12,297 nucleotides of DNA, from contig JAFGOG010000602.1 of the NCBI GenBank assembly GCA_016926595.1, positions 1 to 12,297 of the forward strand. Reading direction: 5' to 3'. The notes below the pieces were generated by a model, which worked only from the letters and a program-made list of their open reading frames with translations, did not search any database and was not told the DNA's origin. The position numbers were made by a program, and so were the translations under genes. The stretch is from Anaerolineae bacterium. Its GTDB lineage: Bacteria; Chloroflexota; Anaerolineae; JAAYZQ01. The number at the start of each line of letters is the position of its first letter. The first letter of the stretch is position 1. This document shows, one piece after another, positions 181-12,180 of the stretch.

Positions 181-214
181 TACTGAGATTTTACTGAGAC
201 CCTTGTGGTAAGAT
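181..214 (+). promoter_or_regulatory. SARP-type promoter: 11-bp direct repeat plus -10 box (copy A)
   Basis: TACTGAGA occurs at 181-188 and again at 192-199, exactly 11 bp apart. It is followed by CCCTTGTGG and a -10-like TAAGAT at 209-214. There is no conventional TTGACA -35 box. SARP regulators are known to bind heptamer direct repeats with 11-bp period whose last copy ends about 8 bp before the -10, replacing the -35, and this layout fits. The start of transcription would be near 221, giving a leader of about 28 nt before the ATG at 249. Copy B at 5825-5857 has the same geometry. Which protein binds is inferred; the SARP-type gene at 1204-4443 is the nearest candidate. Confidence 0.6.
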
Positions 215-260
215 AGAAGCAACCAGAAAAGGAGGCCTTGGCAGCAGCATGGACCATAAG
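200..260 (+). repeat. Duplicated promoter-leader segment, copy A
   Basis: These 61 bases align without gaps to 5843-5903, with 53 identities. The shared block covers the -10 region, the AAAGGAGGCC ribosome site, the GCAGCAGC spacer, the ATG and codons 2-4. Similarity stops soon after the start codon, so what is conserved is the expression leader. The spacing from GGAGG to ATG is 13 nt in both copies, longer than usual, so the long spacer is itself conserved. Confidence 0.85.
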
Positions 261-470
261 GGTCACGGGCACTTTGCATACCTGCTTCGTCTCTGGCGGG
301 TGGAGGATGGATCGGGGGTGGTTTGGCACGCCTCGCTGCAGGACGTGCGCAGCGGTGAGCGGCAGGGTTTTGCCGGGCTCGACGAGGCTTTTGCCTACCT
401 GCGACAGCAGCTAGAAACACCGCCTGAGCCGTGGCCGCCAGGTCGCGCGGCAGGCATGGCTGCTCGATGA
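249..470 (+). CDS. Small hypothetical protein, YLLRLW...WHASL type (73 aa)
   Basis: This is a 73-residue soluble protein. Its core reads FAYLLRLWRVEDGSGVVWHA, then a turn (DVRSGERQGF) and a likely helix (GLDEAFAYLRQQLE), followed by a Pro/Arg-rich tail that may be disordered. I recall small proteins of this pattern as frequent in Chloroflexota; their function is unknown to me. There is no signal peptide or membrane segment. The start is ATG 249, preceded by GGAGG at 231-235, a long 13-nt spacing. It is preceded by the SARP-type direct-repeat promoter, so its expression is probably under a SARP regulator. A 16-bp tandem repeat overlaps the stop codon, and the secreted-protein gene begins 124 nt later. 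The degraded locus at 5892-6006 appears to be a relative. Confidence 0.75.
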   Translation: MDHKGHGHFAYLLRLWRVEDGSGVVWHASLQDVRSGERQGFAGLDEAFAYLRQQLETPPEPWPPGRAAGMAAR

Positions 471-489
471 GCCGGCTACTCGATAAGCC
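458..489 (+). repeat. 16-bp tandem repeat over the stop codon
   Basis: GGCTGCTCGATGAGCC (458-473) is followed directly by GGCTACTCGATAAGCC (474-489), with 14 of 16 bases identical. Each unit starts GGCT and ends AGCC, so each can fold into a small stem, and the pair could also fold as one longer structure. The first unit contains the TGA stop at 468-470. It could attenuate read-through into the downstream gene, or simply be a slippage duplication. Confidence 0.6.
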
Positions 490-515
490 GAGGAGGGAGG
501 TGGCCAAGACATCGA

Positions 516-544
516 GTGACACAAATAGTAATTGACCAGATACT
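516..544 (+). promoter_or_regulatory. Possible promoter of the secreted-protein gene
   Basis: GTGACA (516-521), a 17-bp spacer and GATACT (539-544) match the sigma-70 -35 and -10 consensus at 5/6 and 4/6 positions. Transcription would start near 551, giving a leader of about 44 nt. The gene might instead, or also, be read from the promoter at 181-214. Confidence 0.35.
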
Positions 545-594
545 AAAGACAAGATGAAGCAGGTTCAATCTACTGATTATGAAGGGAGAAAACG

Positions 595-1116
595 ATGAAA
601 CGGACCACGATCATGCTATCTGTTGCTTTGCTGTTGGTATTGCTTCCCGTGGGGCTTGTCTCTGCGTCGCCAGCGATCCATATCGAGGGGTGGAGCGCGG
701 CCGGACAGCTGCTCTATCCGCCCGCTGTAACGCCTTTCGCGAACGATAACAAGTGTATCATCGATTTTGGGTTTGAATGGGAGCTATACGGAGATATCGA
801 GGCCGTATGCGACACCTACAATTCGATCACCGTGCACGGGCCGTGCGGGTGTCCTGACTGCCGGAGGAACGCAAAGGTGTACGCCGAATGCACGGGCACG
901 GTGGCTGGCTACGGAAACATCGATGACACCTTTGAGCTCAAGGGCACACAGCAACAGTGGTTCGACGACGCTGGGCAAAGTTATGTAAAAAAACAACTCG
1001 TGCTCAGCGGCGGCACTGGAGAACTGGCCAACCTGCACGGGGTTATGCACGTCTTGGGCATGCCTGGCGTGGCGGGTACCTACGATGGCATCATCACCTT
1101 TGGCCAGGACAAGTAG
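595..1116 (+). CDS. Secreted six-cysteine hypothetical protein (173 aa)
   Basis: A clear Sec signal peptide opens the protein: MKRTT, then a hydrophobic run to about residue 22 and a small-residue cleavage region (VSASPA, 22-27). The mature part has six cysteines (54, 72, 84, 86, 89, 99), with a compact CGCPDC cluster at 84-89. They could form disulfides outside the cell or bind a metal. The C-terminal third (GGTGELANLHGVMHV...GTYDGIITF) resembles the strand pattern of small beta-barrels such as allene oxide cyclase or dirigent-like folds. That is a weak resemblance, and no function is claimed. ATG 595 has GGGAG at 584-588, six bases upstream. The gene converges with the SARP-type gene across an 87-bp gap holding a hairpin. 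Confidence 0.85.
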   Translation: MKRTTIMLSVALLLVLLPVGLVSASPAIHIEGWSAAGQLLYPPAVTPFANDNKCIIDFGFEWELYGDIEAVCDTYNSITVHGPCGCPDCRRNAKVYAECTGTVAGYGNIDDTFELKGTQQQWFDDAGQSYVKKQLVLSGGTGELANLHGVMHVLGMPGVAGTYDGIITFGQDK

Positions 1117-1140
1117 ACGATCGGGCGGGGAGATCGCGGG

Positions 1141-1172
1141 AGACCTTCGAGACCTTGAGACCTCGAAGGTCT
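1141..1172. terminator. Hairpin between convergent genes, likely bidirectional
   Basis: AGACCTTCGAG (1141-1151) and CTCGAAGGTCT (1162-1172) form a perfect 11-bp stem around a 10-nt loop. It lies between the stop of the secreted-protein gene (1116) and the stop of the minus-strand regulator (1204), where a shared terminator is expected. No long T-run follows on either strand, so intrinsic termination may be inefficient, or the element may be a dispersed palindrome. Confidence 0.55.
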
Positions 1173-1203
1173 GTCCTGCTCGATCTCTACGCTCGCATCC
1201 GTG

Positions 1204-4200
1204 TCATCCGTGCACACCCGTGTCGTGCGCCAGCTCCTCGAGCAGCTCCCGCAGCGTTGCCTCCAGGTCGCGAGCCCGGCCGCGCGCCTCGGCCACTGCG
1301 TAGGGCTCGGGCGACAGCCTGGCCTGCAATCCGTGCAAAAGCTCATCTGCCCTAACCCGGGTTTCCTCAACGCTCTCGGGATGGTACCGGGCCATAGCCG
1401 TGACCTCGACTGCTCGCGCCTGATCTCCCGTCTGGGCTAAGAACGCCGCCGGCCCGAGCAGCACGTGTGGCTTCAGACCAACCTCGAGTCTGTCCGAGGC
1501 CGCTGCCAGAGCCAACCCATACTGGCGCCTTGCCTCGGGCAGATCTCCGCAGGCCAGGGCGGCATCTCCCAACCGCTGCAGCGAAACCGGCACGCCGTAG
1601 CAGCCGCCGATGAGCGAAAGCACCTCGACCCAGTAAAAGCCCAAATCCTGGTAGCGAGTCAAGGCTCGCCGGTGGTAGTCTTGCGCCGCCTCATCGTCGT
1701 GGACGGCCATGGCCACGTCGCCCAGGTGAGAGTACAGGCGTCCAACGGCCCACAGGTGACCCGTTTGCTGAAACAACTCTAGGCCTTTCTGGTAGGTCTG
1801 CCTGGCCTGTATATAATCGGCGCGCGCATAGAAAATGTGTCCCAACATGGTCAGCGCAAGCGCGGCACCATACCGGTCGTCGATCTGCCGGGCTACAGCC
1901 AGCGCTTCTCGAGCATACTGTTCTGCTGCTACATAGTCCGCCTGAAGCGCCGCAAACACTAGATTGTAGGCCAGGTTGTATAGAGCCAGTATCGTAACCG
2001 GTTTCAGATCCAGCTTCCTGGAGAGGGCTAGGCTCTCCTCCAAGAGTTGCCTGGCCCTGGGCATATTCACCAAGTCAAGGACACCGCTCACTGCGACGAC
2101 ATTGCCCACTGCGATATCGCTGCCCTTGCCCACGCGGTGCAAGAGCGATAGGCCCTGCTCGACATAGTCGATGGCCCGATCCATGTGATCGAACCAGGCG
2201 GCGAAATAGCCCTGCATCACCAGCGCCAGCCCCCTTGCCGCCGTTTGCTCCTCACCTGCCCGCTCTCCTGGCCTCGGCCTCAGGGCCGTCACAGCCTCCG
2301 CAAAGATCGCCTCCCCTTCCTGGCCCAGAAAAGATCCTTGATAGAGGATCCACAGGCTGCTCAAGCATGGATGGATCTGGGCCACACGACGGTTTGCCGT
2401 CACCCAGCGCCACGCGGCGCGGATATTATCGATCTCGCACAGCGACGCTGCCAAGTTCCCTCTCCATATGTCCGTTTCCTGGCGGGCCAGGAACCCGGCA
2501 TACCATGCGCCGTGTCGGTCAAGAGCGCATTCCATCTCCGCCGGACGTTCTTCCAGCTTTTTCTCACCATACTGCCGCAGCAGCTCGTGCACCTGGTAGC
2601 GCCCACGTTCATCGCAGGTCAGGAACAACTTGTGCGCCAGCCCGCGTAGCGTCTCCAGGTCCGCGCCCGCCACCTGCTGTGCTGCCTCTCGCGTGAATCC
2701 CCCGCGAAAGACCGACAGCATGGCAAAGGCTTGGCGCTCCGCTTCGCTCAACATGGCCCACGACACATCAAACGCGGCGACCATACTGCGGTGCCGCTCC
2801 GGCAGGTCAAACAGCTCGCTGTGCAAAAAGGCCAGGCTCCGCCCCAGCTCAGCGGCGATCTCGCTGGGCGAGAGCACGTCGCTCCACGCCGCCGCCAGCA
2901 CGATCGCCAGCGGCATACCTTCCACCATCCGGCAGATCCGCCCGATCTGGGCCAGCGCCTCCTCGTCCGGCTCATACCCCGGCCGCGCCCGCCGCGCCTG
3001 CTGCAGGTACAGCCGCACCCCGCTGTACGCCAGCACAGACCCCCCGAATTTTGTACAAAATTTGAGTATCAGGTCCGGTGGCGGGACATCCAGGCCTGGC
3101 ACCGCCAGCACCTGCTCCCCACTGGCGTTCAGCCGGGCGCGCGAGGTGACCAGCAGCTGGACACCGGGCGCCACGCGCAGCAGCTCCAGCAGCAACTCGA
3201 CCCCTTCCCCTCGCCGGCGTCCACCGCCATCCTCGCCCCCATTGGCGATCAACTGCTCCACGTTATCCAGCACCAGCAGTATACGCCTGTCTCGCAGGGT
3301 GCGCAGCAGTTGCTGCCTTGGCTCGTTGCTCCCGGGCAAAGAGAGCCCGAGCGCCTGCACCACCGCCGACACGGCTCCGTCGACGGTGTGCACCGGCGCC
3401 AGCGGCACGAAATAGACCCCATCGGGGAAACGGTCGCCCGATGCCTGTGCCATCGCTTCCTCCGCTAACTGCAGCGCCAGCCGCGTCTTGCCGATCCCAC
3501 CCGGCCCCACCAGCGTCACCAGCCGGCAGCCCGAATCCTGCAGCAACGCCGTCAGCTCCGCCAGTGTTTTTTCCTGCCCCACAAAGGGCGTCACCGGGGC
3601 AGGCAGGTTGTGTTTTCGGTCAAGAAACCGGGTTTCGGTCACCTGCGGTGCCTTCAAAAGCCCAGTTTCTGAGCTGCCGCGGATCTGTTCGTACAGCGCG
3701 ACCGTCGCCGCTGCCGGCTCGATCCCCAGCTCCTCCGCCAGCGCCCGCCGGCAGGCCTCGTATTGGGCCAACGCTGCGTTCCGCCGCCCGCTCAAGGCCA
3801 ACGCGCGCATGGCCAAGCGGTGCGCCGCCTCGTGCCACGGCTCCAGCTCGACCCAGCGCCGCGCCGCCTCCAGCGCCTGCTCCACATCCCCGCGTGCCTC
3901 ATAGCCCTTTGCCAGCGCCGCCAGCGCGTCTACCGCCAGCTGGTGCAGATGCTCGCGTTGCACCAGCTGCCACTCCTCAAAGGCCGGGCTGTCCGCCAGC
4001 GACAGCCCGTGCAGGAACGGCCCGGCATACAACGCCGCCGCGCACGCCAGCCGCTCGCCACAAGCCGGGCACGTCTCCAGCTGCCAGTGCACGTGCGCCT
4101 GGCAGGCCGACAGCAGCGAGGTGAAGACGCACACGTCCAGCCAGCAATCACCGGCCGGATCGAACTGAACGGCCTGCGCTGTGACCAGCAGGCAGGGCCG

Positions 4201-4443
4201 CCCTGTTCCCTCGAGGGCAGAGCGCAGGACGTACAACGCTTGGCTCAGGTTGTTCCGTGCGCGCCGCTCGCTCAACTCCGGCCACAGCAGGCCGGCCAAC
4301 GCCTCCCGGCGATGGGGCCGTTGTGACTCCAGCGCCAGGTAGGCCAGCAGGGCTCGCACCTTGTTGTATCTCAATTCGGTCTCCGGCCCGCCGTCCAGGC
4401 AGACCCGGAACCCCCCGAGGAACCACATGGATAGTCGCGCCAT
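1204..4443 (-). CDS. SARP-type transcriptional regulator: winged helix, BTAD, NB-ARC-like ATPase, TPR (1079 aa)
   Basis: Residues ~3-95 form an OmpR-like winged helix of the SARP class (LGGFRV, RRARNNLSQALYVLRSAL). Residues ~97-255 are a bacterial transcriptional activation domain with the CPAC cysteine pair at 125-128. A linker (259-282) leads to an ATPase beginning NLPAPVTPFVGQE, with Walker A GPGGIGKT (313-320) and Walker B LLVLDN (389-394). The C-terminal ~450 residues are TPR-like helices that probably sense a ligand or partner. Proteins of this build are cytoplasmic STAND-type activators that bind direct repeats overlapping the -35 region. The start chosen is ATG 4443, four bases after GGAGGAGG; a TTG 18 bases earlier lies within or before that site. 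Two oddities: palindromic repeats are translated in-frame at ~270-278 and ~458-468, and an IS sits just upstream of the promoter. The targets are inferred. Confidence 0.93.
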   Translation of the reverse strand: MARLSMWFLGGFRVCLDGGPETELRYNKVRALLAYLALESQRPHRREALAGLLWPELSERRARNNLSQALYVLRSALEGTGRPCLLVTAQAVQFDPAGDCWLDVCVFTSLLSACQAHVHWQLETCPACGERLACAAALYAGPFLHGLSLADSPAFEEWQLVQREHLHQLAVDALAALAKGYEARGDVEQALEAARRWVELEPWHEAAHRLAMRALALSGRRNAALAQYEACRRALAEELGIEPAAATVALYEQIRGSSETGLLKAPQVTETRFLDRKHNLPAPVTPFVGQEKTLAELTALLQDSGCRLVTLVGPGGIGKTRLALQLAEEAMAQASGDRFPDGVYFVPLAPVHTVDGAVSAVVQALGLSLPGSNEPRQQLLRTLRDRRILLVLDNVEQLIANGGEDGGGRRRGEGVELLLELLRVAPGVQLLVTSRARLNASGEQVLAVPGLDVPPPDLILKFCTKFGGSVLAYSGVRLYLQQARRARPGYEPDEEALAQIGRICRMVEGMPLAIVLAAAWSDVLSPSEIAAELGRSLAFLHSELFDLPERHRSMVAAFDVSWAMLSEAERQAFAMLSVFRGGFTREAAQQVAGADLETLRGLAHKLFLTCDERGRYQVHELLRQYGEKKLEERPAEMECALDRHGAWYAGFLARQETDIWRGNLAASLCEIDNIRAAWRWVTANRRVAQIHPCLSSLWILYQGSFLGQEGEAIFAEAVTALRPRPGERAGEEQTAARGLALVMQGYFAAWFDHMDRAIDYVEQGLSLLHRVGKGSDIAVGNVVAVSGVLDLVNMPRARQLLEESLALSRKLDLKPVTILALYNLAYNLVFAALQADYVAAEQYAREALAVARQIDDRYGAALALTMLGHIFYARADYIQARQTYQKGLELFQQTGHLWAVGRLYSHLGDVAMAVHDDEAAQDYHRRALTRYQDLGFYWVEVLSLIGGCYGVPVSLQRLGDAALACGDLPEARRQYGLALAAASDRLEVGLKPHVLLGPAAFLAQTGDQARAVEVTAMARYHPESVEETRVRADELLHGLQARLSPEPYAVAEARGRARDLEATLRELLEELAHDTGVHG
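3047..3062. repeat. 16-bp AT-rich perfect palindrome inside the regulator gene
   Basis: AATTTTGTACAAAATT is its own reverse complement and stands out in a GC-rich coding region. It encodes part of LILKFCTKFGG (~458-468), which interrupts the usual stretch between the VPGLDVP segment and the VRLYLQQARR helix of the ATPase. It looks like an in-frame insertion of a palindromic element. It could also act as an internal operator. Confidence 0.65.
3612..3636. repeat. GAAACC-N-GGTTTC dispersed element, copy in the regulator linker
   Basis: GAAACCGGGTTTC (3624-3636) is a palindrome around one central base, preceded by GTTTTCGGTCAA. The same arrangement occurs in reverse complement at 5771-5801, with the palindrome and the GTTTT..GTCA arm both recognisable. 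In the regulator it is translated as ETRFLDRK. A weaker unit, CCCAGTTTCTGA, lies at about 3661-3672 and encodes the nearby SETGLL. The element sits in the linker between the BTAD and ATPase domains, where an insertion would be tolerated. Confidence 0.65.
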
Positions 4444-4487
4444 CGCGCCTCCTCCAGGCAACAGGTTAGGACACAGACTGCACCCCT

Positions 4488-4517
4488 ATTGTACAACATG
4501 GCAGATGTACGTGTCAA
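4488..4517 (-). promoter_or_regulatory. Sigma-70-like promoter of the SARP-type regulator
   Basis: On the minus strand TTGACA (4517-4512), an 18-bp spacer and TACAAT (4493-4488) match the consensus at 6/6 and 5/6. Transcription would start near 4481, leaving a leader of about 38 nt to ATG 4443. The target duplication of the IS begins at 4520, so everything further upstream than three bases from the -35 box is now IS DNA. Confidence 0.72.
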
Positions 4518-4519
4518 AC

Positions 4520-4528
4520 GCGCTTGGC
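4520..4528. repeat. Target site duplication, left copy
   Basis: GCGCTTGGC here is repeated exactly at 5750-5758, on the other side of the IS. Nine bases fits the 8-10 bp duplications usual for the ISAs1 family. Confidence 0.85.
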
Positions 4529-4530
4529 AG

Positions 4531-4547
4531 GGCAGGGCAATCGCATC
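4531..4547 (+). repeat. IS left inverted repeat
   Basis: GGCAGGGCAATCGCATC is the exact reverse complement of 5733-5749. GGCAGGG also occurs just outside it, overlapping the target duplication, which blurs the outermost two bases. Confidence 0.93.
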
Positions 4548-4569
4548 TAAACTGGAGCTGAGGTAGAAT
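4541..4569 (+). promoter_or_regulatory. Possible transposase promoter
   Basis: TAGAAT at 4564-4569 is a good -10 box. A poor -35 candidate, TCGCAT (4541-4546), lies 17 bp before it within the inverted repeat. A weak promoter is common for transposases. Confidence 0.3.
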
Positions 4570-4598
4570 ACCCTCCAAGACGAACTATGGAGGGTGAA

Positions 4599-5771
4599 AT
4601 GTCAAAGAATCCAGAGGCGACGATTGTCGAGCACTTGGCCAGTCTAGACGATCCACGGTTGGAACGCACCAAATTGCATCCGTTAATCAACATTTTGGTC
4701 ATTGCCCTCTGCGGCGTGATCTGTGGAGCAGATAGCTGGGTCGACATCGAACTGTTTGGCGAGTCGAAGCAAGCATGGTTTGCCAAGTTCCTCGATCTAG
4801 AAAACGGGATACCTTCACACGATACCTTTGGACGGGTCTTTGCACGATTGGACAGCGAACAGTTCCAGCGCTGCTTTGTCAACTGGGTCCAGGCCATCTG
4901 TGACGTGCTCCAAGGTCAGGTTGTTGCTGTCGATGGCAAAACGGTGCGTCGTTCGCACGACCGGACCATCGGCAAAGACGCGATCCATATGGTCAGTGCC
5001 TGGGCGACAGAGAACCAACTGGTGTTGGCACAGACTAAGGTGGATGACAAGTCGAACGAGATTACGGCTATACCGGTGCTCCTAGAATTGCTTGAGTTAT
5101 CAGGTTGTATCGTGACGATCGATGCGATCGGCTGTCAGAAAGAGATAGCCGAACAGATCGTGGATCAAGACGCAGACTACGTGTTGGCCCTAAAGGCCAA
5201 CCAGGGCCGGCTATATCGAGATGCGCAGACCCTGTTCGAGGACGCACGCGCCATCGACTTCGCGGACTGTGACTATCACAGAACCGTCGACAAAAGGCAC
5301 GGTCGCATCGAGATTCGTGAGTGTTGGGCGACAGCTCATCCGGAATACCTTGCAGCGTTGTACAAGCCTGAACAATGGACGGGATTGCATACAGTAGCTA
5401 TGGTCCGTGCAGAACGGCGTATTGGCGATAAGGTAGAGACAGAAACCCGATACTACCTGTCGAGCTTGCCTGGCGATGCCAAGCAACTCCTGAATGCCAT
5501 TCGCAACCATTGGCACATCGAGAACAAGCTTCACTGGGTGCTAGATGTGACCTTCCGTGAAGATGACAGCCGAATCCGAACGGGCAACGCGGACCAGAAC
5601 ATGACTGTGCTACGGCATATGGCCCTGAACCTACTCAAGCAAGAGCAATCCACCAAGCGCAGTATCCGGGGCAAACGTCTCAAGGCGGGCTGGGACGAGG
5701 GCTATCTAGCCCAAATCCTTTGCGGCAATTACGATGCGATTGCCCTGCCGCGCTTGGCTCTCCACACATAG
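4599..5771 (+). CDS. ISAs1-family DDE transposase (390 aa)
   Basis: This cut-and-paste transposase is related to the H-repeat proteins of enteric bacteria. The N-terminal part, LASLDDPRLERTKLHPLINI, is the DDE_Tnp_1-associated region. The catalytic acidic residues appear in VVAVDGKTVRRS, VTIDAIGCQKEIA and HWHIENKLHWVLDVTFREDD. The tract DYVLALKANQG is typical of the family. ATG 4599 is preferred because GGAGGG at 4589-4594 lies four bases upstream; an in-frame ATG at 4587 would place that site inside the gene. The right inverted repeat is translated as DAIALP, and the frame leaves the element there: the last seven codons (PRLALHT), from the third base of the Pro codon, and the stop TAG are host DNA. 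No frameshift or internal stop is seen, so the protein is probably active. Confidence 0.95.
   Translation: MSKNPEATIVEHLASLDDPRLERTKLHPLINILVIALCGVICGADSWVDIELFGESKQAWFAKFLDLENGIPSHDTFGRVFARLDSEQFQRCFVNWVQAICDVLQGQVVAVDGKTVRRSHDRTIGKDAIHMVSAWATENQLVLAQTKVDDKSNEITAIPVLLELLELSGCIVTIDAIGCQKEIAEQIVDQDADYVLALKANQGRLYRDAQTLFEDARAIDFADCDYHRTVDKRHGRIEIRECWATAHPEYLAALYKPEQWTGLHTVAMVRAERRIGDKVETETRYYLSSLPGDAKQLLNAIRNHWHIENKLHWVLDVTFREDDSRIRTGNADQNMTVLRHMALNLLKQEQSTKRSIRGKRLKAGWDEGYLAQILCGNYDAIALPRLALHT
5733..5749 (-). repeat. IS right inverted repeat
   Basis: GATGCGATTGCCCTGCC is the exact reverse complement of 4531-4547 and lies inside the 3' end of the transposase gene. Confidence 0.93.
5750..5758. 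repeat. Target site duplication, right copy
   Basis: GCGCTTGGC is identical to 4520-4528 and directly abuts the right inverted repeat. It is translated as part of the transposase tail. Confidence 0.85.
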
Positions 5772-5801
5772 AAACCTGGTTTCTGACAAAAACCCGGTTT
5801 C
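5771..5801. repeat. GAAACC-N-GGTTTC dispersed element, intergenic copy
   Basis: GAAACCTGGTTTC (5771-5783) is a perfect palindrome around one base. It is followed by TGACAAA and a second near-palindrome, AAACCCGGTTT (5790-5800). It matches the copy at 3612-3636 in reverse complement. If the IS and one target copy are removed, the first palindrome lies about 23 bp upstream of the SARP-type gene's -35 box, so it may once have been an operator of that promoter. Confidence 0.7.
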
Positions 5802-5824
5802 CAGATCCACGAATGCTGCACGCC

Positions 5825-5857
5825 ATTGACATTCTATTGACACCCTTGTGGCAAGAT
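5825..5857 (+). promoter_or_regulatory. SARP-type promoter: 11-bp direct repeat plus -10 box (copy B)
   Basis: ATTGACA occurs at 5825-5831 and at 5836-5842, exactly 11 bp apart. CCCTTGTGG and CAAGAT (5852-5857) follow, with the same spacing as copy A at 181-214. Compared with copy A, the heptamer has changed at two positions (ACTGAGA to ATTGACA), and both changes appear in both halves, as selection on a dimer-bound repeat would produce. The -10 has lost its first T relative to copy A. A normal sigma-70 reading (TTGACA to CAAGAT with 9 or 20 bp) fits poorly. It points away from the SARP-type gene. Confidence 0.58.
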
Positions 5858-5903
5858 AGGGACGACCAGGAAAGGAGGCCTCGGCAGCAGCATGGACCAA
5901 AAG
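5843..5903 (+). repeat. Duplicated promoter-leader segment, copy B
   Basis: This is the partner of 200-260, with 53 of 61 bases identical and no gaps. It includes AAAGGAGG (5871-5878), a 13-nt spacer and the ATG at 5892. The coding sequences diverge after the fifth codon, so the leader is better preserved than what it expresses. Confidence 0.85.
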
Positions 5904-6006
5904 CGGTACGGGAAACCTGGCGGATCTGCACAGCCTCCTCAAGTTCGCTGGGCGCGCCGGTCAGGCAGGCGCCTACGAGGGTTTTGTGCACTTTGACCCC
6001 GAGTAG
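5892..6006 (+). pseudogene. Decayed small-protein gene behind leader copy B
   Basis: The ATG frame starts MDQKRYGK, like MDHKGHG of the 249-470 protein, but continues into a low-complexity Arg/Pro sequence and stops at 5994-5996 after 34 codons. From 5917 the next frame reads LADLHSLLKFAGRAGQAGAY and on to TAG at 6004-6006. That looks like real protein, and its start resembles the FAGLDEAFAYLRQQLE helix of the 249-470 protein in spacing and hydrophobicity. The simplest reading is an internal deletion with frameshift in a paralogue that kept its promoter. Alternatively the ATG frame is a new 34-residue peptide. The parentage rests on short similarities. Confidence 0.45.
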
Positions 6007-6036: not shown

Positions 6037-6077
6037 AACAAGCCGGTCAGGTTCGAGAAAACCTGACCGGTCTTGTT
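6037..6077 (-). terminator. Strong terminator of the seven-gene operon
   Basis: CCGGTCAGGTT (6043-6053) and AACCTGACCGG (6060-6070) form a perfect 11-bp stem with a 6-nt loop. AACAAG (6037-6042) and CTTGTT (6072-6077) extend it by six pairs across a single bulged T. The hairpin overlaps the stop codon of the histidine phosphatase gene (6076-6078). A long T-run is missing on the minus strand. It may also stop transcripts from the opposite side. Confidence 0.75.
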
Positions 6078-6690
6078 ACAAGTTCTCCTCCCCCCAGCGC
6101 AGGCACACCCACTCCCCGTCGCGTTGTTCGGCGACGACGGCGACCGTATAGCCGATCGGCCGGGCCATGGAAAAGGGCTTGTCGACGTTCGACAGCAGCA
6201 GCGGCAGCATCGCCCGCAGCGTGCCGCCGTGGCTGATCAGCAGCAGGTTGGCCTCCGTGTCGCGATACCGTTCCTCCAGCCTGGCGATCAGGGGCATAAA
6301 GCGCGCGGCGATGTCGTTATAACTCTCACCGCCCTCGATCCGCGCCTCGTGGTGGTCGTGTTCCATCCACTGCTGAACGACCTGCCAATAGATAGCCTCT
6401 CTCTCTTTGCTGTACTTTGCGCCCTCGAGGATCCCGACATCGTACTCCCACAGCCCTTCGGCCACCTCGGGCGTCAGCCCCAGCCGCTGGCCGACGATCT
6501 GCGCCGCCTGCACGGCGCGCAGCACCGGGCTGCAATAGAGGGCGACAAAGGGGATGCCGGCGAGGCTATCGGCTAACGCTTGGGCCTGCTCCTGCCCCTT
6601 GCCGGTCAAGCCGTAGCCGTGCGGCTTGTTCCAAAACACTTGCTGGACGTTGGCCTCACTCTCGCCGTGCCGGGCAAAATAGAGCCTCAT
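6076..6690 (-). CDS. Histidine phosphatase family protein (phosphoglycerate mutase-like, 204 aa)
   Basis: The phosphate pocket is complete: RHGE at 7-10 with His8 as the likely phospho-acceptor, Arg58 in SPVLRAVQAAQ, Glu82 in GLWEYDVG as proton donor, and His154 in LLISHGG. This is the cytoplasmic two-histidine phosphatase fold of about 200 residues. Members hydrolyse small phosphate esters such as sugar phosphates, nucleotides or alpha-ribazole phosphate; the substrate cannot be read here. The WEYDVGILEG tract is more like broad-specificity phosphatases than cofactor-dependent glycolytic mutases, which are longer. It is the last gene of the operon. Its ATG overlaps the TGA of the acetyltransferase gene by four bases, and GGAGGAG lies just upstream inside that gene, so translation is probably coupled. 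Confidence 0.9.
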   Translation of the reverse strand: MRLYFARHGESEANVQQVFWNKPHGYGLTGKGQEQAQALADSLAGIPFVALYCSPVLRAVQAAQIVGQRLGLTPEVAEGLWEYDVGILEGAKYSKEREAIYWQVVQQWMEHDHHEARIEGGESYNDIAARFMPLIARLEERYRDTEANLLLISHGGTLRAMLPLLLSNVDKPFSMARPIGYTVAVVAEQRDGEWVCLRWGEENL

Positions 6691-7589
6691 GTCTCTCCTC
6701 CTACTGGCAGCTGAAAGTCACAGACGATCGACGGCTGGACCGGCCGGTAGCCGATCCGTTGGTACATACTGTTCGAGGTGGGATTGGCCAGATCGGCGTA
6801 TAGAGCACAGAACTGGTACCCTTCATCGAGCAGCACACGGCTCAGGACGGCAACGCACGAGGTCGCATACCCTCGCTTCCGGTGTTCGGGCGGGGTATAG
6901 ACGCCGCTGACAACGACCCCGTGGCGGGTTGGCCGCGCCTTCCAGGCCATGGACACCGGCGCCCCATCGTGCCACAGATAGAGAGAGGAGGCGGCCACCG
7001 TCCGCTCCACGCGTGCACGTGCCTCGTGGGGTGGCAGTGGATCCAGCGTGATCGCCGAAAAGCCGACCATCCACCCGGTGAGCAGCGGGATATGCGCTGT
7101 AGTGGCCTGGGTGAGCCTGCCCGGGCTGGAGGCGATCGCGTTGACCCGGTCCAGACGGTAGATCATCTGCTCCATCTGCACGGCAACCCTACAGGCTCTA
7201 CGCTGCTGCCACGCCTGGGCAAAAGCGGTTGCTACCTCGCGTGGGCCGATTACGCCCGGCGGCGACACCCCCTGGTCAAGCAAATACGACACGGCCTCGT
7301 CGAGCGCGGCGTCGAGACCATCCCCCCGGCCGTGGACGATCAGGCGAGCCGGCGGAGTCATCAACATGACCAGGGGAACCTGCCCATCGTGTTCAACCAA
7401 CGCGAGAAACGGCGGCCGGTCGCCCGGCGACCGTGCCGGTGTCTGCCCGGCTGGCTCTCGCTCGGTCTGCTCTCGCGCCAACCTGGTCAGCAGGCCCAGC
7501 AGCAGATTGTTCGCCGCCTCGTCCTCTTCCAGCGTGTCCCGCACCCTGTCCAGAAAGGCTGCGGCATCGAGATCGCCCCGCACGTTCAC
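6687..7589 (-). CDS. GNAT-family N-acetyltransferase (300 aa)
   Basis: The C-terminal ~110 residues form a GNAT domain. The acetyl-CoA pyrophosphate loop is VYTPPEHRKRGYAT (~230-243), followed by the helix SCVAVLSRVLLDEG and the closing NPTSNSMYQRIGYRPV motif. The N-terminal ~190 residues are less conserved and may be a second, degenerate GNAT half, as in FR47-like double-domain proteins. The acceptor is unknown. The start chosen is GTG 7589: it overlaps the stop of the MazG-like gene as GTGA, and GGAGG lies nine bases upstream. An in-frame candidate at 7643 would put 18 basic residues, read from inside the previous gene, in front. Four-base overlaps on both sides place it firmly in the operon. 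Confidence 0.88.
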   Translation of the reverse strand: MNVRGDLDAAAFLDRVRDTLEEDEAANNLLLGLLTRLAREQTEREPAGQTPARSPGDRPPFLALVEHDGQVPLVMLMTPPARLIVHGRGDGLDAALDEAVSYLLDQGVSPPGVIGPREVATAFAQAWQQRRACRVAVQMEQMIYRLDRVNAIASSPGRLTQATTAHIPLLTGWMVGFSAITLDPLPPHEARARVERTVAASSLYLWHDGAPVSMAWKARPTRHGVVVSGVYTPPEHRKRGYATSCVAVLSRVLLDEGYQFCALYADLANPTSNSMYQRIGYRPVQPSIVCDFQLPVGGET

Positions 7590-7945
7590 GCTGGCTGTCC
7601 TCCTTCTGCTTCGATCGCGTCGCGGGCCAGCGGCCCGACCCACCCTTCGCTGACGACGCGCTGATAAGCCTGGTCGACGTATGCGGCCATTTCGTCCTGC
7701 AGGCGATAATGGATCGCCAGCTGCAGCACAACGCCCATCACATGCGCCAGTTCCTTGGCCAGTTTGTTTCTGTCCGGCGCGCCCAACTTGGCCAGTTTGA
7801 CGCCCATCCCTTCGAGATGGTTAACCTCGGTGGCCACCTCACCACACTCCTCAGCCAGACGGGTGACGATCTTGAACGGGTCATCGCTGCCATCGCGAAA
7901 TTTGTTGTTCAGTGCCTGGGCGATCTTGTACAGTTTATCGATCAA
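7586..7945 (-). CDS. MazG-like nucleotide pyrophosphohydrolase (119 aa)
   Basis: This is a compact all-alpha protein with the EExxE motif (EECGE, 32-36), as in MazG and related NTP pyrophosphohydrolases that cut NTPs to NMP and pyrophosphate. In the family this pairs with ExxD to hold Mg2+. Here the second motif reads ELAH (65-68), with His in place of Asp, so metal binding or activity may differ. The start is TTG 7945, supported by GGGAGG five bases upstream and a TTGA overlap with the stop of the PHP gene; the next in-frame Met would remove the EExxE motif. The neighbouring phosphoesterase and phosphopentomutase fit a nucleotide-cleaning role, though that is inferred. Confidence 0.8.
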   Translation of the reverse strand: MIDKLYKIAQALNNKFRDGSDDPFKIVTRLAEECGEVATEVNHLEGMGVKLAKLGAPDRNKLAKELAHVMGVVLQLAIHYRLQDEMAAYVDQAYQRVVSEGWVGPLARDAIEAEGGQPA

Positions 7946-8844
7946 CTCTGCCTCCCAGCTTGCCGTGTCTGGTGCCAGGCCACGTGCCGCGCCTCGATGG
8001 CGGCTACCATCTCGCCGGTCACCGGCTCGGTACCCAGGCGACGCCCCTCGTCAGAATAGCCGTGTGTGTCTGACCCGCCGCTGACCAGCAGGTTGAAACG
8101 CCGCGCCAACGCGCCGAAATGAGCCCGCGCTGCATCGTCGAGGCGGAAATGATAGACCTCGAGCCCGTCCAGGCCCATTTCGACCAGCCCGGCCACATGT
8201 GTTTCCTGCAGCCGCTGGCCATCGCAGGTGACCGCCACGGGATGGGCCAGGATGGCCACGCCGCCCGCGCGGTGGATCTGGTTTATGCAGCGGTCGACGG
8301 TCAACGAACTTGGCCGCACCTGCCGCCAACCGCTTATCATCAACTCAAGGGCCGCCGCCTCTGTCGGGGCATAGCCTTTCCCCTGGATGACGTGAATCAG
8401 CTGCATCAGGCCGGCGTAATGGGGATTGTGGGCGAACACGTCGTCGATCGACACGGGATAGCCATCGGCGGTCAGGCAGGCGCAGCAGGCGGCGACGCGC
8501 GCGTGGATGTCGTCCAGCGTAGCCTGCTCGAAAGCACGGAATGCTGCGTCGTCGACGTCGACAAAATAGCCCAGCACGTCGATGTCGCTCTCTCCCGGCG
8601 CGGCGTGGCAGCGCTCCCAACAGCAGGTCAGCTCGATCGCCGGGATCAGGCTCAAACCAAGCTCACCCGCTAGCGCTCGCACCGCGCGCACGCCATTGGC
8701 ATTGTCGTGATCGGTCAGCGCCACCGTGCGCAGGCCCAGCGCCGCACATCGGCGCAACACGCCCTCGGGCGCATCCCGCCCATCGGAGTAATAGGTGTGG
8801 ATGTGCAGGTCGACGGCATGCCGGTTGTTCCCTGACTCGCTCAT
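7942..8844 (-). CDS. PHP-domain phosphoesterase (TrpH/RNase AM-like, 300 aa)
   Basis: The PHP metal-site motifs are in order: DLHIHTYYSDG (12-22), TDHDN (44-48), IELT with Glu71, LAHPV with His201, and GSDTHG (257-262). They make a trinuclear phosphoesterase centre. In stand-alone proteins of this length the best-known activity is 3',5'-nucleoside bisphosphate phosphatase with 5'-3' oligoribonuclease activity (YciV/RNase AM, the former TrpH). Histidinol phosphatase is less likely from the motif order and the absence of his genes. An extra Cys-rich patch (CCWERCH, 74-80; CCAC, 120-123) is unusual. ATG 8844 overlaps the previous stop as ATGA, with GGAGGG about 12 bases upstream. Confidence 0.88.
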   Translation of the reverse strand: MSESGNNRHAVDLHIHTYYSDGRDAPEGVLRRCAALGLRTVALTDHDNANGVRAVRALAGELGLSLIPAIELTCCWERCHAAPGESDIDVLGYFVDVDDAAFRAFEQATLDDIHARVAACCACLTADGYPVSIDDVFAHNPHYAGLMQLIHVIQGKGYAPTEAAALELMISGWRQVRPSSLTVDRCINQIHRAGGVAILAHPVAVTCDGQRLQETHVAGLVEMGLDGLEVYHFRLDDAARAHFGALARRFNLLVSGGSDTHGYSDEGRRLGTEPVTGEMVAAIEARHVAWHQTRQAGRQS

Positions 8845-9914
8845 AAGACTATCTTGCCCTCCAACACGATCGTTCGCCCATCGACCTCGAGCGTCGCGCC
8901 CGGCAGGGCAAAATCGATGTTCAGCGACGACTCGTTCTGGCCGCCCATATAACGGTTCTCACCAAAAGCGACAAAGAGCGCGCCATAAACGTGCTCGTCG
9001 ACCAACGTCCAGCCCATCGGCCGGTTCAGGTAGGGATTGAGCCCCAGGCCGATGTGGCTCACCCGTCTCGGCTCACCGCTGTGTGTATCAAACATCGCCC
9101 GCAGCTCCTCGGCACCGCTGCCGGCCTCGATACGCTCGATCCGCCCCCGGGAAAAGTGGAATACGACCTCGGTCGCTCCTTCCGCTTCCGGCAGCCACAA
9201 GCTGCCCTCGGTTTCTGTTTCGCGGACGGTCGTAAAGATCGCTCCCGATGGCAGGTTACCCGCAACGCCCTCCCGGTCCCAGTCGATCTGGTTAGTCTGG
9301 CCGCCATCCCCCAGCCAGGGACGGTCGCCGCGCTGTAAGCACAGCACGTGGCCCTCTCCGCTGTGAATCGTGATCGTCCGTCCTCCCTCCACCGCAGCAA
9401 ACACCTTGTCGATCTCCCCTTGCAGCTCTTGTGCGCTGGCGGCCAGGGCGGGGATCAAGATCGCTTCCAAAGCTTCGAGGCTGAGGTTGAGCTGCCTGGC
9501 TTGTGCCTCTGTAGGGATCGCGACCAAGAGATCGGGCAGGGAACGCGCTTCTTCGGCTATGGTCAAACGGTATACAGCCTGGCGCCAGGCGTGGAATCGC
9601 GCTTGGGACACCATGTGTAAGTTCGGGTCCGCGCCAGCCAGCACCAGAATCCGATCGATCTGCTCTATCAACTTGGCTCGATGCCGATCCCAGTGAGCGA
9701 GATAGTCCAACGGGGCTTCATTCCACAAGCGCCGTTTGTATTCGGGGGGAAGAAACTCGATCAATGGCGTTGCGCCATGTAACTCAATGGCCAGCGCGAT
9801 CTCGAGCAGGACATCGATCCGCCCCGCGCTGTCCCGGACGTGGACGAGCTCACCCGGCTGTACACCGAGCCCCTGCACGATGCGCCGCGCAATAACAGAC
9901 CATCTTGTGTCTAT
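8841..9914 (-). CDS. M29 aminopeptidase-like protein with altered metal site (~357 aa)
   Basis: The family is recognised from VQPGELVHVRD near the N-terminus, GNLPSGAIFTT, SHIGLGLNPYL and GGQNESSLNIDFALPG. M29 enzymes (AmpS, PepS, thermophilic aminopeptidase T) use two metals held by Glu, Glu, His, His and Asp. At the expected places this protein shows Ala225 (GA for GE), His287 (SHIG for AELG), Phe314 (FVAFG for HIALG) and Asn332 (NID for HxD). Only Asp334 is kept, so it is probably not a normal aminopeptidase. Start: family-like sequence (DTRWSVIARRIV) runs upstream of the first standard start, GTG 9878, to an ATA at 9914 that has GAGGAGG five bases before it and a TAG immediately before. 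It overlaps the PHP gene as ATGA. Confidence 0.8.
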   Translation of the reverse strand: MDTRWSVIARRIVQGLGVQPGELVHVRDSAGRIDVLLEIALAIELHGATPLIEFLPPEYKRRLWNEAPLDYLAHWDRHRAKLIEQIDRILVLAGADPNLHMVSQARFHAWRQAVYRLTIAEEARSLPDLLVAIPTEAQARQLNLSLEALEAILIPALAASAQELQGEIDKVFAAVEGGRTITIHSGEGHVLCLQRGDRPWLGDGGQTNQIDWDREGVAGNLPSGAIFTTVRETETEGSLWLPEAEGATEVVFHFSRGRIERIEAGSGAEELRAMFDTHSGEPRRVSHIGLGLNPYLNRPMGWTLVDEHVYGALFVAFGENRYMGGQNESSLNIDFALPGATLEVDGRTIVLEGKIVL

Positions 9915-9919
9915 CTAAA

Positions 9920-9926
9920 CCTCCTC
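9920..9926 (-). promoter_or_regulatory. Ribosome site that points to an ATA start
   Basis: GAGGAGG on the minus strand (9926-9920) is followed by TTTAG and then ATA at 9914. GTG 9878 has no comparable site, and the ATG at 9904-9902 is out of frame and closes after 17 codons. The site lies in the 29-nt gap after the BrkB-family gene. Confidence 0.6.
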
Positions 9927-9943
9927 GGGCCACCGGCTGTAGG

Positions 9944-10945
9944 TTACTCCACCTCGGCCTCAGGCGCCCTGCTGCGGGCGACAACACCAGGTTGTGGGCC
10001 GCGTGTCACCCAATGCGGCCTTGGCCGTTCCCGGCGCACGAATTGCCAGGCCATGGTTAGCTCGGCGCCGATCAGCAGGATCACGCTGGTGTAGTAGGAC
10101 CAGATAATAAAGGCGATGAACTTGCCCAACGGGCCATAGATCAGGTTATAGGGCCGAAAGGTGACCACATAGTTGGTGAACACCTGCTTGCCCAGCTCCC
10201 AAAACAGCGCGCTCAACACCGCCCCGGGCAGCCACTCCCACCACTGCATGGCAATGTTGGACAGGAGGCGATAGATCGTGTACACCAGGAGAATAGCCAG
10301 CACCATGCCACCCAGCGTCACCAGCCGGGCGCTGAGCTTGCTGGCCTCGACCGAGATCAGCCCCAGGGAGAGGTCGGGCAGGGTGCTGACGATCCCGTCG
10401 ATCGCCGTCAAGGCCATCGACAGCACAAACAACAGCAGGATCAGGCCCACCGCCGCCAGGCCGAGCAGGCGCTGCCACCAGAACGACTTGGGCTCTTGCA
10501 CCTCGCCAATGGCATTCAGCGCGCGGTGAATGCCGGCAAAGACGTTGCTGCCCGACCAAAACAGGCCCAACAGCGACAGCACGCTGGCTACGGTGCGGTA
10601 GCGCAGCAACTGGTCGATGTTGAGCTGCACCAGTTGGTCGGCCTGGGGCAGGTAGCGGTCGACAAAGTTGAAAATCGCCTCTTGCGTCTCGGCATAGGTC
10701 AGAAAAGAACTGCTCAGGACGATCAGCAGCAGGATCAGGGGAAAAAAGGAGAGCAGCAGGTAATAGGCGATCGCCGCCGCGCGCACCGCGCACTCGTGCT
10801 TGCCATAGTTGATGACCGTCTTGCGCACCAGCAGCGCCGCGCTGCCGGCAAGCCATTTGCTCTGTTCCGCCCAACCTCGCCAATCGACGTCTGGCATGGT
10901 CAGCGTACGCCGTCCCTGCTTGTTACGCAACGGGTTCCCCCTCAC
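9944..10945 (-). CDS. YihY/BrkB-family inner membrane protein (333 aa)
   Basis: This is an integral membrane protein with about six hydrophobic segments, beginning [20 protein letters not shown]. Family signatures include [55 protein letters not shown] and [20 protein letters not shown]. Proteins of this family (formerly misnamed RNase BN) have no settled biochemical role; export or envelope integrity has been suggested. The basic, Pro-rich C-terminal tail should be cytoplasmic. The GTG start at 10945 overlaps the deoB stop as GTGA, matching the operon's habit, but its ribosome site is poor; ATG 10897 (MPDVDWRGW) is a fair alternative giving 317 residues. Confidence 0.9.
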
Positions 10946-12180
10946 CGGGAACCGCCTGCCAGCAGCTCGCCGGCAAAGCTGTCGCCAAACGGGATCGCGC
11001 CGATGCCCAGCAGGTCGGTAACGGTCGCCCCCAGGTCGGCAAAAGTCGGCCGCGTGCCCAGGTTGAGGCCGGCGCGAACGCGCTCCCCCACCGCCAGCAG
11101 CGGCACGTACTCGCGCGAGTGATCGGTGCTGGTCGTCGTCGGATCGTTGCCGTGGTCAGCGGTCAGAAAGAGGATGTCAGCCGGGCGCAACGCCTGCAGC
11201 AGCTCGGGCAGGCGTCGGTCGACCTCCTCCAGCGCCGTCGCGTAACCGCGCGGGTCGTTGCGGTGGCCATAGAGCATGTCGAAATCGACCAAGTTGGCAA
11301 AGATCAGGCCGCCCTCCTCCGGCCGGTTAGCCATAAACTGCAGCGTGGCGTCCACCCCGGCCATGTTGTTGGTGCTGTGGATGACGTCGGTCATCCCACG
11401 GTGGGCGAAAATGTCCTCGATCTTGCCCACCGCCATCACCCGTCGCCCCGCCTCTTTGAGCCGGTCCAGGATCGTCGGCTGCGGCGGCGGCGCGGAAAAA
11501 TCGCGCCGGTTTTCGGTGCGCACATACTGGCCATCCACCGGCCCGGTAAAGGGGCGGGCGATGACCCGGCCCACGTTGTGCTCGCCTTGCAGGATCTCGC
11601 GCGCGGTCTCGCAGATGTGGATCTGCTCTTCCAGCGGAATGACCGCTTCGTGCATGGCCACCTGGAACACGCTGTCGGCCGAAGTGTAGACGATCGGCGC
11701 GCCGCTGCGCACGTGGGCGTCGCCCAGCTCCTGGATGATCGCCGTGCCCGAGGCGGTGACGTTGCCCAGGGTCCTGCGCCCGATGCGGCGCTCGAACTCG
11801 TCCAGGATGGCGCGGGGAAAGCCGTTCGGATAGGTCGGCAGCGGCTGCGACGAGACCAATCCGGCGATCTCCCAGTGCCCGGTGGTCGTGTCCTTGCCCT
11901 TGGAGCGCTCGGCCATCCGCCCGTAGGCGCCGGTTGGCGCTGCGGCTGGCGGAACACCCAACACGGGCGCGCCCGACAGCAAGGCCGCGTTGCCCAGCCC
12001 GATGCGCTGCAGATGCGGCAGGGCGAGCCCGCCCACGGCGCGGGCCAGGTTGGCCAGGGTATTCGACTGCGGGTCTTGCTCGCCGTACTCGTCAGCATCG
12101 GGCAGCGCCCCGATCCCGACGCTGTCCAGGACGATCAGGATGGCCCGGTTGATGCCATAGGGTTGGTGTTCAGTGCACAT
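10942..12180 (-). CDS. deoB: Phosphopentomutase (412 aa)
   Basis: DeoB interconverts ribose- or deoxyribose-1-phosphate and the 5-phosphate in nucleoside salvage and catabolism, in the cytoplasm with Mn2+. It belongs to the alkaline phosphatase superfamily. All landmarks are present: [13 protein letters not shown] near the N-terminus, KDTTTGHWE carrying the phospho-acceptor Thr, YTSADSVFQ in the cap domain, [12 protein letters not shown], and the metal-binding TADHGNDPT and [11 protein letters not shown]. The length is close to the family's usual ~390-410. ATG 12180 has only GGAAAGAGAG as a ribosome site. It is the first gene of the minus-strand operon. No deoA, deoC or deoR-like gene is visible in the window, so its usual partners are elsewhere or upstream of 12297. 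Confidence 0.96.

Follow-up and report, generated by a model that had tools for sequence, protein, structure and literature searches.

The 12,297-nucleotide contig JAFGOG010000602.1 from an Anaerolineae bacterium (Chloroflexota), referred to here as the window, carries two promoters built on paired heptameric direct repeats and, between them, a gene for a large SARP-type regulator. Comparison with related loci suggests that the window contains two tandem copies of a regulator-promoter cassette, one apparently intact and one decayed. Each cassette would consist of a divergently transcribed STAND-type large SARP, a promoter with a cassette-specific heptamer pair, and genes for two proteins, one small with a predicted beta3-alpha fold and the other an exported-type cargo. 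We regard this model, including the AfsR-like mechanism proposed below, as probably correct. A 2024 review describes SARPs as exclusively actinobacterial (PMC10972967), yet the regulator-promoter cassettes described here are conserved in Chloroflexota. Among the open-licence literature, a search combining SARP or BTAD with Chloroflexi, Chloroflexota, or Anaerolineae matched only a soil metagenome study and the structure of a MmyB-like regulator, a result that does not prove absence in print; in a search of the SARP literature that included Ktedonobacter, that word was in none of the matches listed.

The original prediction placed SARP-type operators at positions 181-214 and 5825-5857, and the layout it described is real: at both sites two heptamers lie 11 bp apart, followed by CCCTTGTGG and then by a -10 box. 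The two sites are not independent, since they head two homologous operons; together they represent a single homologous element of 95 nt, 80% identical between the copies, that spans the promoter, the ribosome-binding site, and the first codons. Their heptamers differ by two substitutions (C/T at base 2 and G/C at base 6), each of which is carried by both repeats. The -10 of site 2 (CAAGAT) is weaker than that of site 1 (TAAGAT).

The gene between the promoters encodes a large SARP, as had been proposed. Its BTAD (PF03704) scores 91.8 bits against a cut-off of 22.1, and NB-ARC (30.6 bits), NACHT (35.4 bits), and TPR_12 (41.7 bits) each exceed their cut-offs, with AAA also matched; NB-ARC/NOD and TPR regions thus follow the SARP domain, as in large SARPs of the AfsR type. 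AfsR of Streptomyces coelicolor shares this architecture of a winged helix-turn-helix (wHTH) followed by BTAD, NB-ARC, and TPR. The wHTH of the window SARP matches Trans_reg_C at 16.9 bits, under the Pfam cut-off of 26.2, but when the window SARP and 14 relatives are combined in one profile, this aligns across the wHTH and BTAD with EmbR and AfsR (E ∼1e-18), which identifies the N-terminus as a predicted OmpR-type winged helix despite the Pfam score. The likely start codon is the ATG at 4441-4443, behind GGAGGAGG. MalT-like STAND activators, which carry a C-terminal LuxR helix-turn-helix, also possess an NB-ARC/NACHT and TPR half, and TPR_MalT matches the window SARP at 32.5 bits, below its cut-off of 45; in contrast to those activators, the DNA-binding part of the window SARP is its N-terminal SARP wHTH.

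Related cassettes were gathered through the 73-aa protein encoded by small open reading frame (ORF) 1. A protein search found 26 relatives besides the protein itself; a contig search with the 73-aa protein alone returned no relatives, and one with a 21-member alignment returned 111, of which the best 80 loci were used. Titles of 76/80 loci name Chloroflexi, Chloroflexota, or groups that we take to belong there, and the other four name Latescibacterota, Rubrobacter, Methanosaeta, and simply a 'bacterium'. Part of the listed matches was analysed in the genome surveys, two of the match tables were themselves cut short, and some of the candidates in the phylum and class surveys were scored, so the tallies for these two are lower bounds: the small-ORF family is present in at least 22/301 genomes sampled from the phylum and at least 191/396 from the class, and in 38/48 and 42/56 genomes of two orders.

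The repeat geometry upstream of these small ORFs is in large excess over chance. An exact heptamer pair at a start-to-start distance (lag) of 11 occurs in 36/81 small-ORF upstream regions (the window plus the 80 loci), compared with a mean of 0.56 and a maximum of 3 in shuffled sequences, and between 0 and 6 pairs are seen in the same regions at any other lag in the range 7-24. Among modules with at least 100 nt upstream, 140/332 contain an exact lag-11 pair (76/178, 28/66, and 36/88 by set, after modules with less upstream sequence were dropped: 3/181, 1/67, and 1/89). Other spacings average 2-4 pairs per set, and the peak is at lag 11 alone; an exact pair plus a -10 is present in 97/332. Control regions upstream of other long ORFs in the 80 loci contain 7/277 lag-11 pairs, against an other-lag mean of 7.35, and 3/277 exact pairs plus a -10. 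An earlier control set (321 upstream regions, 43 lag-11 pairs, 6 full sites) that included the SARP side of the same intergenic regions was rejected.

Sites recognisable by 6/7 heptamer matches plus a -10 were found in 174/337 modules. In exact sites of the training set the -10 (to TANNNT) most often starts 9 bp after the second heptamer (36/52), as in the window. These promoters thus show the geometry of SARP operators, in which 11-bp direct repeats end with the 3' repeat about 8 bp before the -10. The lack of a proper -35, also part of the original prediction, is general: at spacings of 16-18, 1/174 sites matches TTGACA at 4/6 or better and 13/174 match at 3. Within the gap between repeat 2 and the -10, T occupies position 2 in 112/174 sites, and TG stands one base before the -10 in 60/174, a pattern hinting at an extended -10.

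The regulator is usually adjacent and divergent. A SARP N-terminus lies divergently upstream in 71/81 loci, 66 of them within 1500 nt, and among modules with at least 1 kb upstream a divergent SARP lies within 1500 nt in 213/312 (114/166, 44/62, and 55/84 by set). The distance from SARP to small ORF has a median of 205 nt and a 75th percentile of 328 (n=230). Site 2 is the one that the window SARP faces, and with an intervening insertion sequence (IS, see below) left out, the SARP start is ∼218 nt from that of small ORF 2; by position, site 2 is therefore the divergent promoter of the SARP. The promoter beside the SARP in related loci is likewise the divergent one, with site 2 as its window counterpart.

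The original prediction also raised the question of whether repeats of the N7-N4-N7 form cluster near BTAD genes, and in general they do not. Among 29 SARPs in five genomes, 21 have no divergent small ORF that was detected, and of these 3/21 show an exact lag-11 pair (other-lag mean 1.06) and 1/21 a full site; the SARPs with such an ORF show a pair in 5/8 and a full site in 4/8. The operator thus tracks the cassette and not BTAD genes at large; as an operator model for Chloroflexota SARPs, the proposal is usable when built from the related small-ORF loci but does not extend to BTAD regulators in general. One genome (G675) contains at least 38 small ORFs and 68 matches to a BTAD profile that also matches some plain TPR proteins. 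A divergent BTAD match was found within 2.5 kb for 15/24 of its listed small ORFs (loci L360 and L372-L394). Several of its small ORFs without a divergent BTAD share or nearly share heptamers (GGCTACG and AGCTACG; TTGGATC), as if these cassettes were served in trans.

Each site carries its own heptamer. Across 174 sites and window site 2, the heptamers agree at 6.38/7 positions within sites and 3.17/7 between sites; selection of sites at 6/7 or better accounts for part of the within-site figure, and the unbiased evidence is the lag profile. Among second heptamers, 110/175 are distinct, and there is consequently no single consensus. Residues of the SARP recognition helix covary with the adjacent heptamer (R67-CG, Q68-T3, R72-G2, T26-T1; numbers before the hyphen are alignment columns). 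Rules were drawn from the training set and held-out set A, and those applied to held-out set B were fixed before the B sites were read; SARPs with fewer than 85 of the first 100 columns filled, or with a DNA-binding domain (DBD) at least 90% identical to one already kept, were dropped. With the register fixed, the rules were followed in held-out B as follows (others in parentheses): R67-CG 16/30 (0/5), S67-not-CG 5/5 (14/30), Q68-T3 4/14 (1/21), V68-A4 5/5 (14/30), H/Q64-T3 1/2 (4/33), R72-G2 7/11 (5/24), T26-T1 3/4 (6/31), and S26-C1 10/22 (0/13). Because the distance to the -10 varies by one base, the register was refitted with a SARP-blind site model, a step chosen after the fixed-register result was known, so that the refitted figures are partly post hoc. 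In held-out A and B combined they are R67-CG 41/50 (0/7), S67-not-CG 7/7 (9/50), Q68-T3 17/25 (2/32), V68-A4 8/8 (20/49), H/Q64-T3 6/6 (13/51), R72-G2 11/12 (8/45), T26-T1 3/4 (9/53), S26-C1 21/40 (3/17), S67-A7 4/7 (0/50), and a weak N72-C2 at 5/19 (2/38). These correlations can be written as a putative code in which residue 67 would specify bases 6-7, residues 68 and 64 bases 3-4, residue 72 bases 1-2, and residue 26 base 1.

The covarying columns coincide with residues described for AfsR. AfsR contacts are reported for S46, R87, T88, and R92 (PMC10936776), which correspond to columns 26, 67, 68, and 72, and the covarying positions match the AfsR contacts within one base. AfsR combines R87 with a CG-containing box, CGTT(T/C)ATCGNN (PMC10972967), as the R67-CG rule predicts.

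Several results weigh against direct reading of the heptamer by the adjacent SARP, or against the generality of the cassette. About half of the modules lack a recognisable site and some of the 174 will be chance occurrences, and for 99/312 modules that extend 1 kb or more upstream, no divergent SARP lies within 1500 nt. The fixed-register counts in held-out B for R67-CG and Q68-T3 are low, as given above. The rule S67-A7 failed in held-out A (0/2) and was restated as S67-not-CG before B was read, K64-T3 was given up because it failed in held-out A (1/4), and Q68-G4 fails in held-out A and B (8/25, compared with 9/32 of the others). R87 of AfsR is described as a phosphate contact and not a base contact (PMC10936776); the covariation at column 67, the strongest of all, suggests that this residue also selects bases 6-7. 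The window SARP scores its own divergent site 2 low (see below). A nearest-neighbor prediction of the heptamer in held-out A is as accurate from the BTAD (4.52/7) as from the DBD (4.31; random 3.20), and a tree of BTAD columns is weakly supported, with 1-2 contrasts on starred branches, too few to test.

The last two observations favor an explanation by shared ancestry, in which related SARPs would sit beside related promoters with no direct recognition. Nearest-neighbor prediction succeeds from every SARP part tried (4.3 to 4.5/7), and since the BTAD performs equally well this test cannot separate recognition from ancestry. Independent contrasts on the BTAD-column tree (medians) are lopsided for the rules: R67-CG 13:0, R67-G7 11:0, T26-T1 10:1, Q68-T3 9:1, R72-G2 6:0, and H/Q64-T3 5:0. 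Twenty sampled BTAD control columns gave mixed contrasts against G7, the most lopsided being 9:2. A stronger test than the tree contrasts is ranking within genomes, with rules trained on other genomes and on SARPs less than 80% identical in the DBD. The cassette's own heptamer ranked first for 48/64 modules, compared with 23 expected, and the summed own score had a permutation p of 1e-4. We therefore consider shared ancestry an unlikely source of the residue-base correlations.

The same cassette-by-cassette matching bears on whether another protein that binds 11-bp repeats, such as an OmpR/PhoP-type response regulator, reads these sites in place of the adjacent SARP. At the afsS promoter, the repeats used by AfsR are recognised by PhoP as well (PMC10972967). 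A response regulator common to all cassettes would, however, force a single consensus on them, and the heptamers follow the residues of the adjacent SARP from cassette to cassette, including within one genome; we judge such a binder highly improbable.

The computations show the layout and spacing of the sites, their divergent pairing with SARPs, the identity of heptamers within a site, the covariation of residues with bases, and the matching within genomes; by analogy with AfsR, we infer that the SARP binds, dimerises, contacts sigma, and activates. The NB-ARC/TPR half would switch the SARP on, and the SARP would dimerise on the pair of identical heptamers, bound side by side on one DNA face just upstream of the -10. 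A SARP surface would then be offered to sigma region 4, replacing the missing -35 contact, so that polymerase is recruited to the -10 and the small protein and cargo are turned on. The heptamer would be read by few residues (the equivalents of AfsR S46, A84, R87, T88, and R92), so that paralogous cassettes of the same genome would show little cross-talk. AfsR activates afsS through repeats on one DNA face, in fixed phase to the -10 and without a -35 (PMC10936776), and the afsS promoter likewise combines a poor -35 with a pair of 11-bp repeats immediately before the -10. Binding so near the -10 could block polymerase, and the SARP might in that case repress its divergent promoter; the arrangement of one-face repeats in fixed phase without a -35 is, however, the one reported for AfsR activation, and repression seems quite improbable. 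The afsS system differs in being actinobacterial and in its target, which as discussed in both papers (PMC10936776, PMC10972967) is afsS, in contrast to the operon of a small protein and exported-type cargo found here; the Chloroflexota genomes also carry several to many parallel cassettes with differing heptamers. PimR, a SARP-LAL protein, is described as using heptameric direct repeats with 4-nt spacers, the same geometry, and as requiring at least two monomers for efficient binding (PMC5930380). Its primary operator has three repeats, whereas a third repeat (6/7 or better) accompanies 11/174 sites here, and neither the LuxR-type C-terminal half nor the antibiotic-cluster setting of PimR/SARP-LAL was seen.

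Within the window, the divergent target of the SARP is broken, and the intact operon 1 has two candidate regulators, either the window SARP acting in trans or another SARP past the contig edge; any divergent SARP of copy 1 would lie outside the window, where the contig ends. That one SARP controls both promoters, the divergent one and that of operon 1 in trans, is quite possible, if short of probable. The residue rules give the window SARP a score of 2.11 for site 1 (95th percentile of other heptamers) and of -1.03 for site 2 (77th percentile); the two heptamers share 5/7 bases, with T3, G4, and A7 among them; the 248 nt that precede small ORF 1 contain no SARP N-terminus; and among 23 G675 cassettes, some without a SARP share a heptamer with each other. 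Conversely, the differences at bases 2 and 6 occur in both repeats and are of the type that separates cassettes elsewhere. The contig also ends 248 nt before small ORF 1, so that a divergent SARP of its own may lie beyond the edge, as the SARP-to-small-ORF distances given above would allow.

Downstream of the promoter, the small protein is the constant part of the cassette and the cargo is the variable part. The small protein is predicted to fold as beta-beta-beta-alpha, with a mean predicted local distance difference test score above 90 over residues 11-50; Pfam and PADLOC gave no match for 21 members, and a fold search gave no convincing structural relative. An ORF follows in 184/187 modules with more than 1.5 kb downstream, and 133/184 of these ORFs have an export-type N-terminal stretch by a crude hydrophobicity cut. 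They form 93 clusters, 68 of them single. A Pfam scan of 20 of the 55 eligible downstream ORFs, hand-picked from 30, found kelch, right-handed beta-helix, SnoaL-like, beta-lactamase-fold, laminin-G, solute-binding, DUF6159, and TPR families, and no family for five of the 20. SnoaL-like domains are present in four of the 20 (one below the cut-off), and the rest are varied; the SnoaL-like fold also occurs outside polyketide pathways. One of the 20 is DNA gyrase A, probably outside any cassette. Because the cargo varies and the small protein does not, one guess is that the latter has a conserved partner on which it acts, either the SARP or an export step.

The broader proposal, somewhat favored by these data, is that Anaerolineae hold a natural library of largely orthogonal STAND-SARP cassettes with a residue-to-base code, private heptamer pairs, a conserved small protein, and fast-changing exported cargo. 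With regulator and operator usually next to each other, the set amounts to a natural experiment on how SARPs read DNA and yields a testable code. If correct, the code would make it possible to deduce SARP operators from sequence, and the switch would have a new component in the small protein. The cassettes also point to a recurrent uncharacterised small protein and diverse exported-type proteins under one kind of switch.

Table 1. Features of the two proposed cassette copies in the window.
Feature	Position	Strand	Description
Site 1 direct repeat	182-199	+	ACTGAGA-TTTT-ACTGAGA; heptamers 182-188 and 193-199, start-to-start 11
Site 1 gap and -10	200-214	+	9-bp gap CCCTTGTGG 200-208, then TAAGAT 209-214
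Small ORF 1	249-470	+	73 aa; YLLRLWR, W.ASL, and GER.GF motifs; predicted beta3-alpha; conserved family
Operon 1 cargo	595-1116	+	173 aa; hydrophobic export-type N-terminus (judged from sequence)
Large SARP	1204-4443	-	wHTH, BTAD, NB-ARC/NACHT, TPR (Pfam and profile alignment)
SARP gene promoter	4488-4517	-	sigma70-like, TTGACA-N18-TACAAT; SARP side of IS
Insertion sequence	4519-5757	+	transposase ORF 4587-5771 (DDE_Tnp_1); inverted ends 4533-4546/5734-5747
Site 2 direct repeat	5825-5842	+	ATTGACA-TTCT-ATTGACA; heptamers 5825-5831 and 5836-5842
Site 2 gap and -10	5843-5857	+	9-bp gap CCCTTGTGG 5843-5851, then CAAGAT 5852-5857
Truncated operon 2	5892-6006	+	first codons of second small ORF joined out of frame to tail of second cargo

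In the second copy, an IS separates the SARP from site 2 and adjoins the SARP -35, just beyond the SARP's own promoter. Its transposase matches PF13808 (123.5 bits) and PF01609 (84.7 bits), and from the DDE_Tnp_1-associated domain, inverted ends, and 9-bp repeats we take the element to be of the ISAs1 type. The insertion looks recent, because the 9-bp target-type repeat CGCGCTTGG is identical on both sides (4519-4527 and 5749-5757). The tail of the second cargo gene (5914-6006) resembles the end of the operon 1 cargo gene, and the second cassette appears to have decayed through an internal deletion that fused the start of its small ORF with the cargo tail. The 173-aa cargo protein of operon 1 has no Pfam family at E 0.01. 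A plasmid blastn search with the site 1 region gave no match, and a viral contig scan with CCCTTGTGGNAAGATAG gave two matches (L001 and L002), neither with a repeat pair; the L001 match was judged by reading its sequence, and the L002 match lies inside a long ORF.

Streptomyces members of the SARP family are described from antibiotic or secondary-metabolite clusters; here, no biosynthetic genes were found among the 10 window proteins scanned, a subset of the window ORFs. Beyond the cassettes, positions 6076-12180 hold a row of minus-strand genes for histidine phosphatase, GNAT, MazG-like, PHP, and M29-like peptidase proteins, together with a membrane-protein-like ORF, which lay outside the scan, and a metalloenzyme-superfamily protein, presumably of the phosphopentomutase type.

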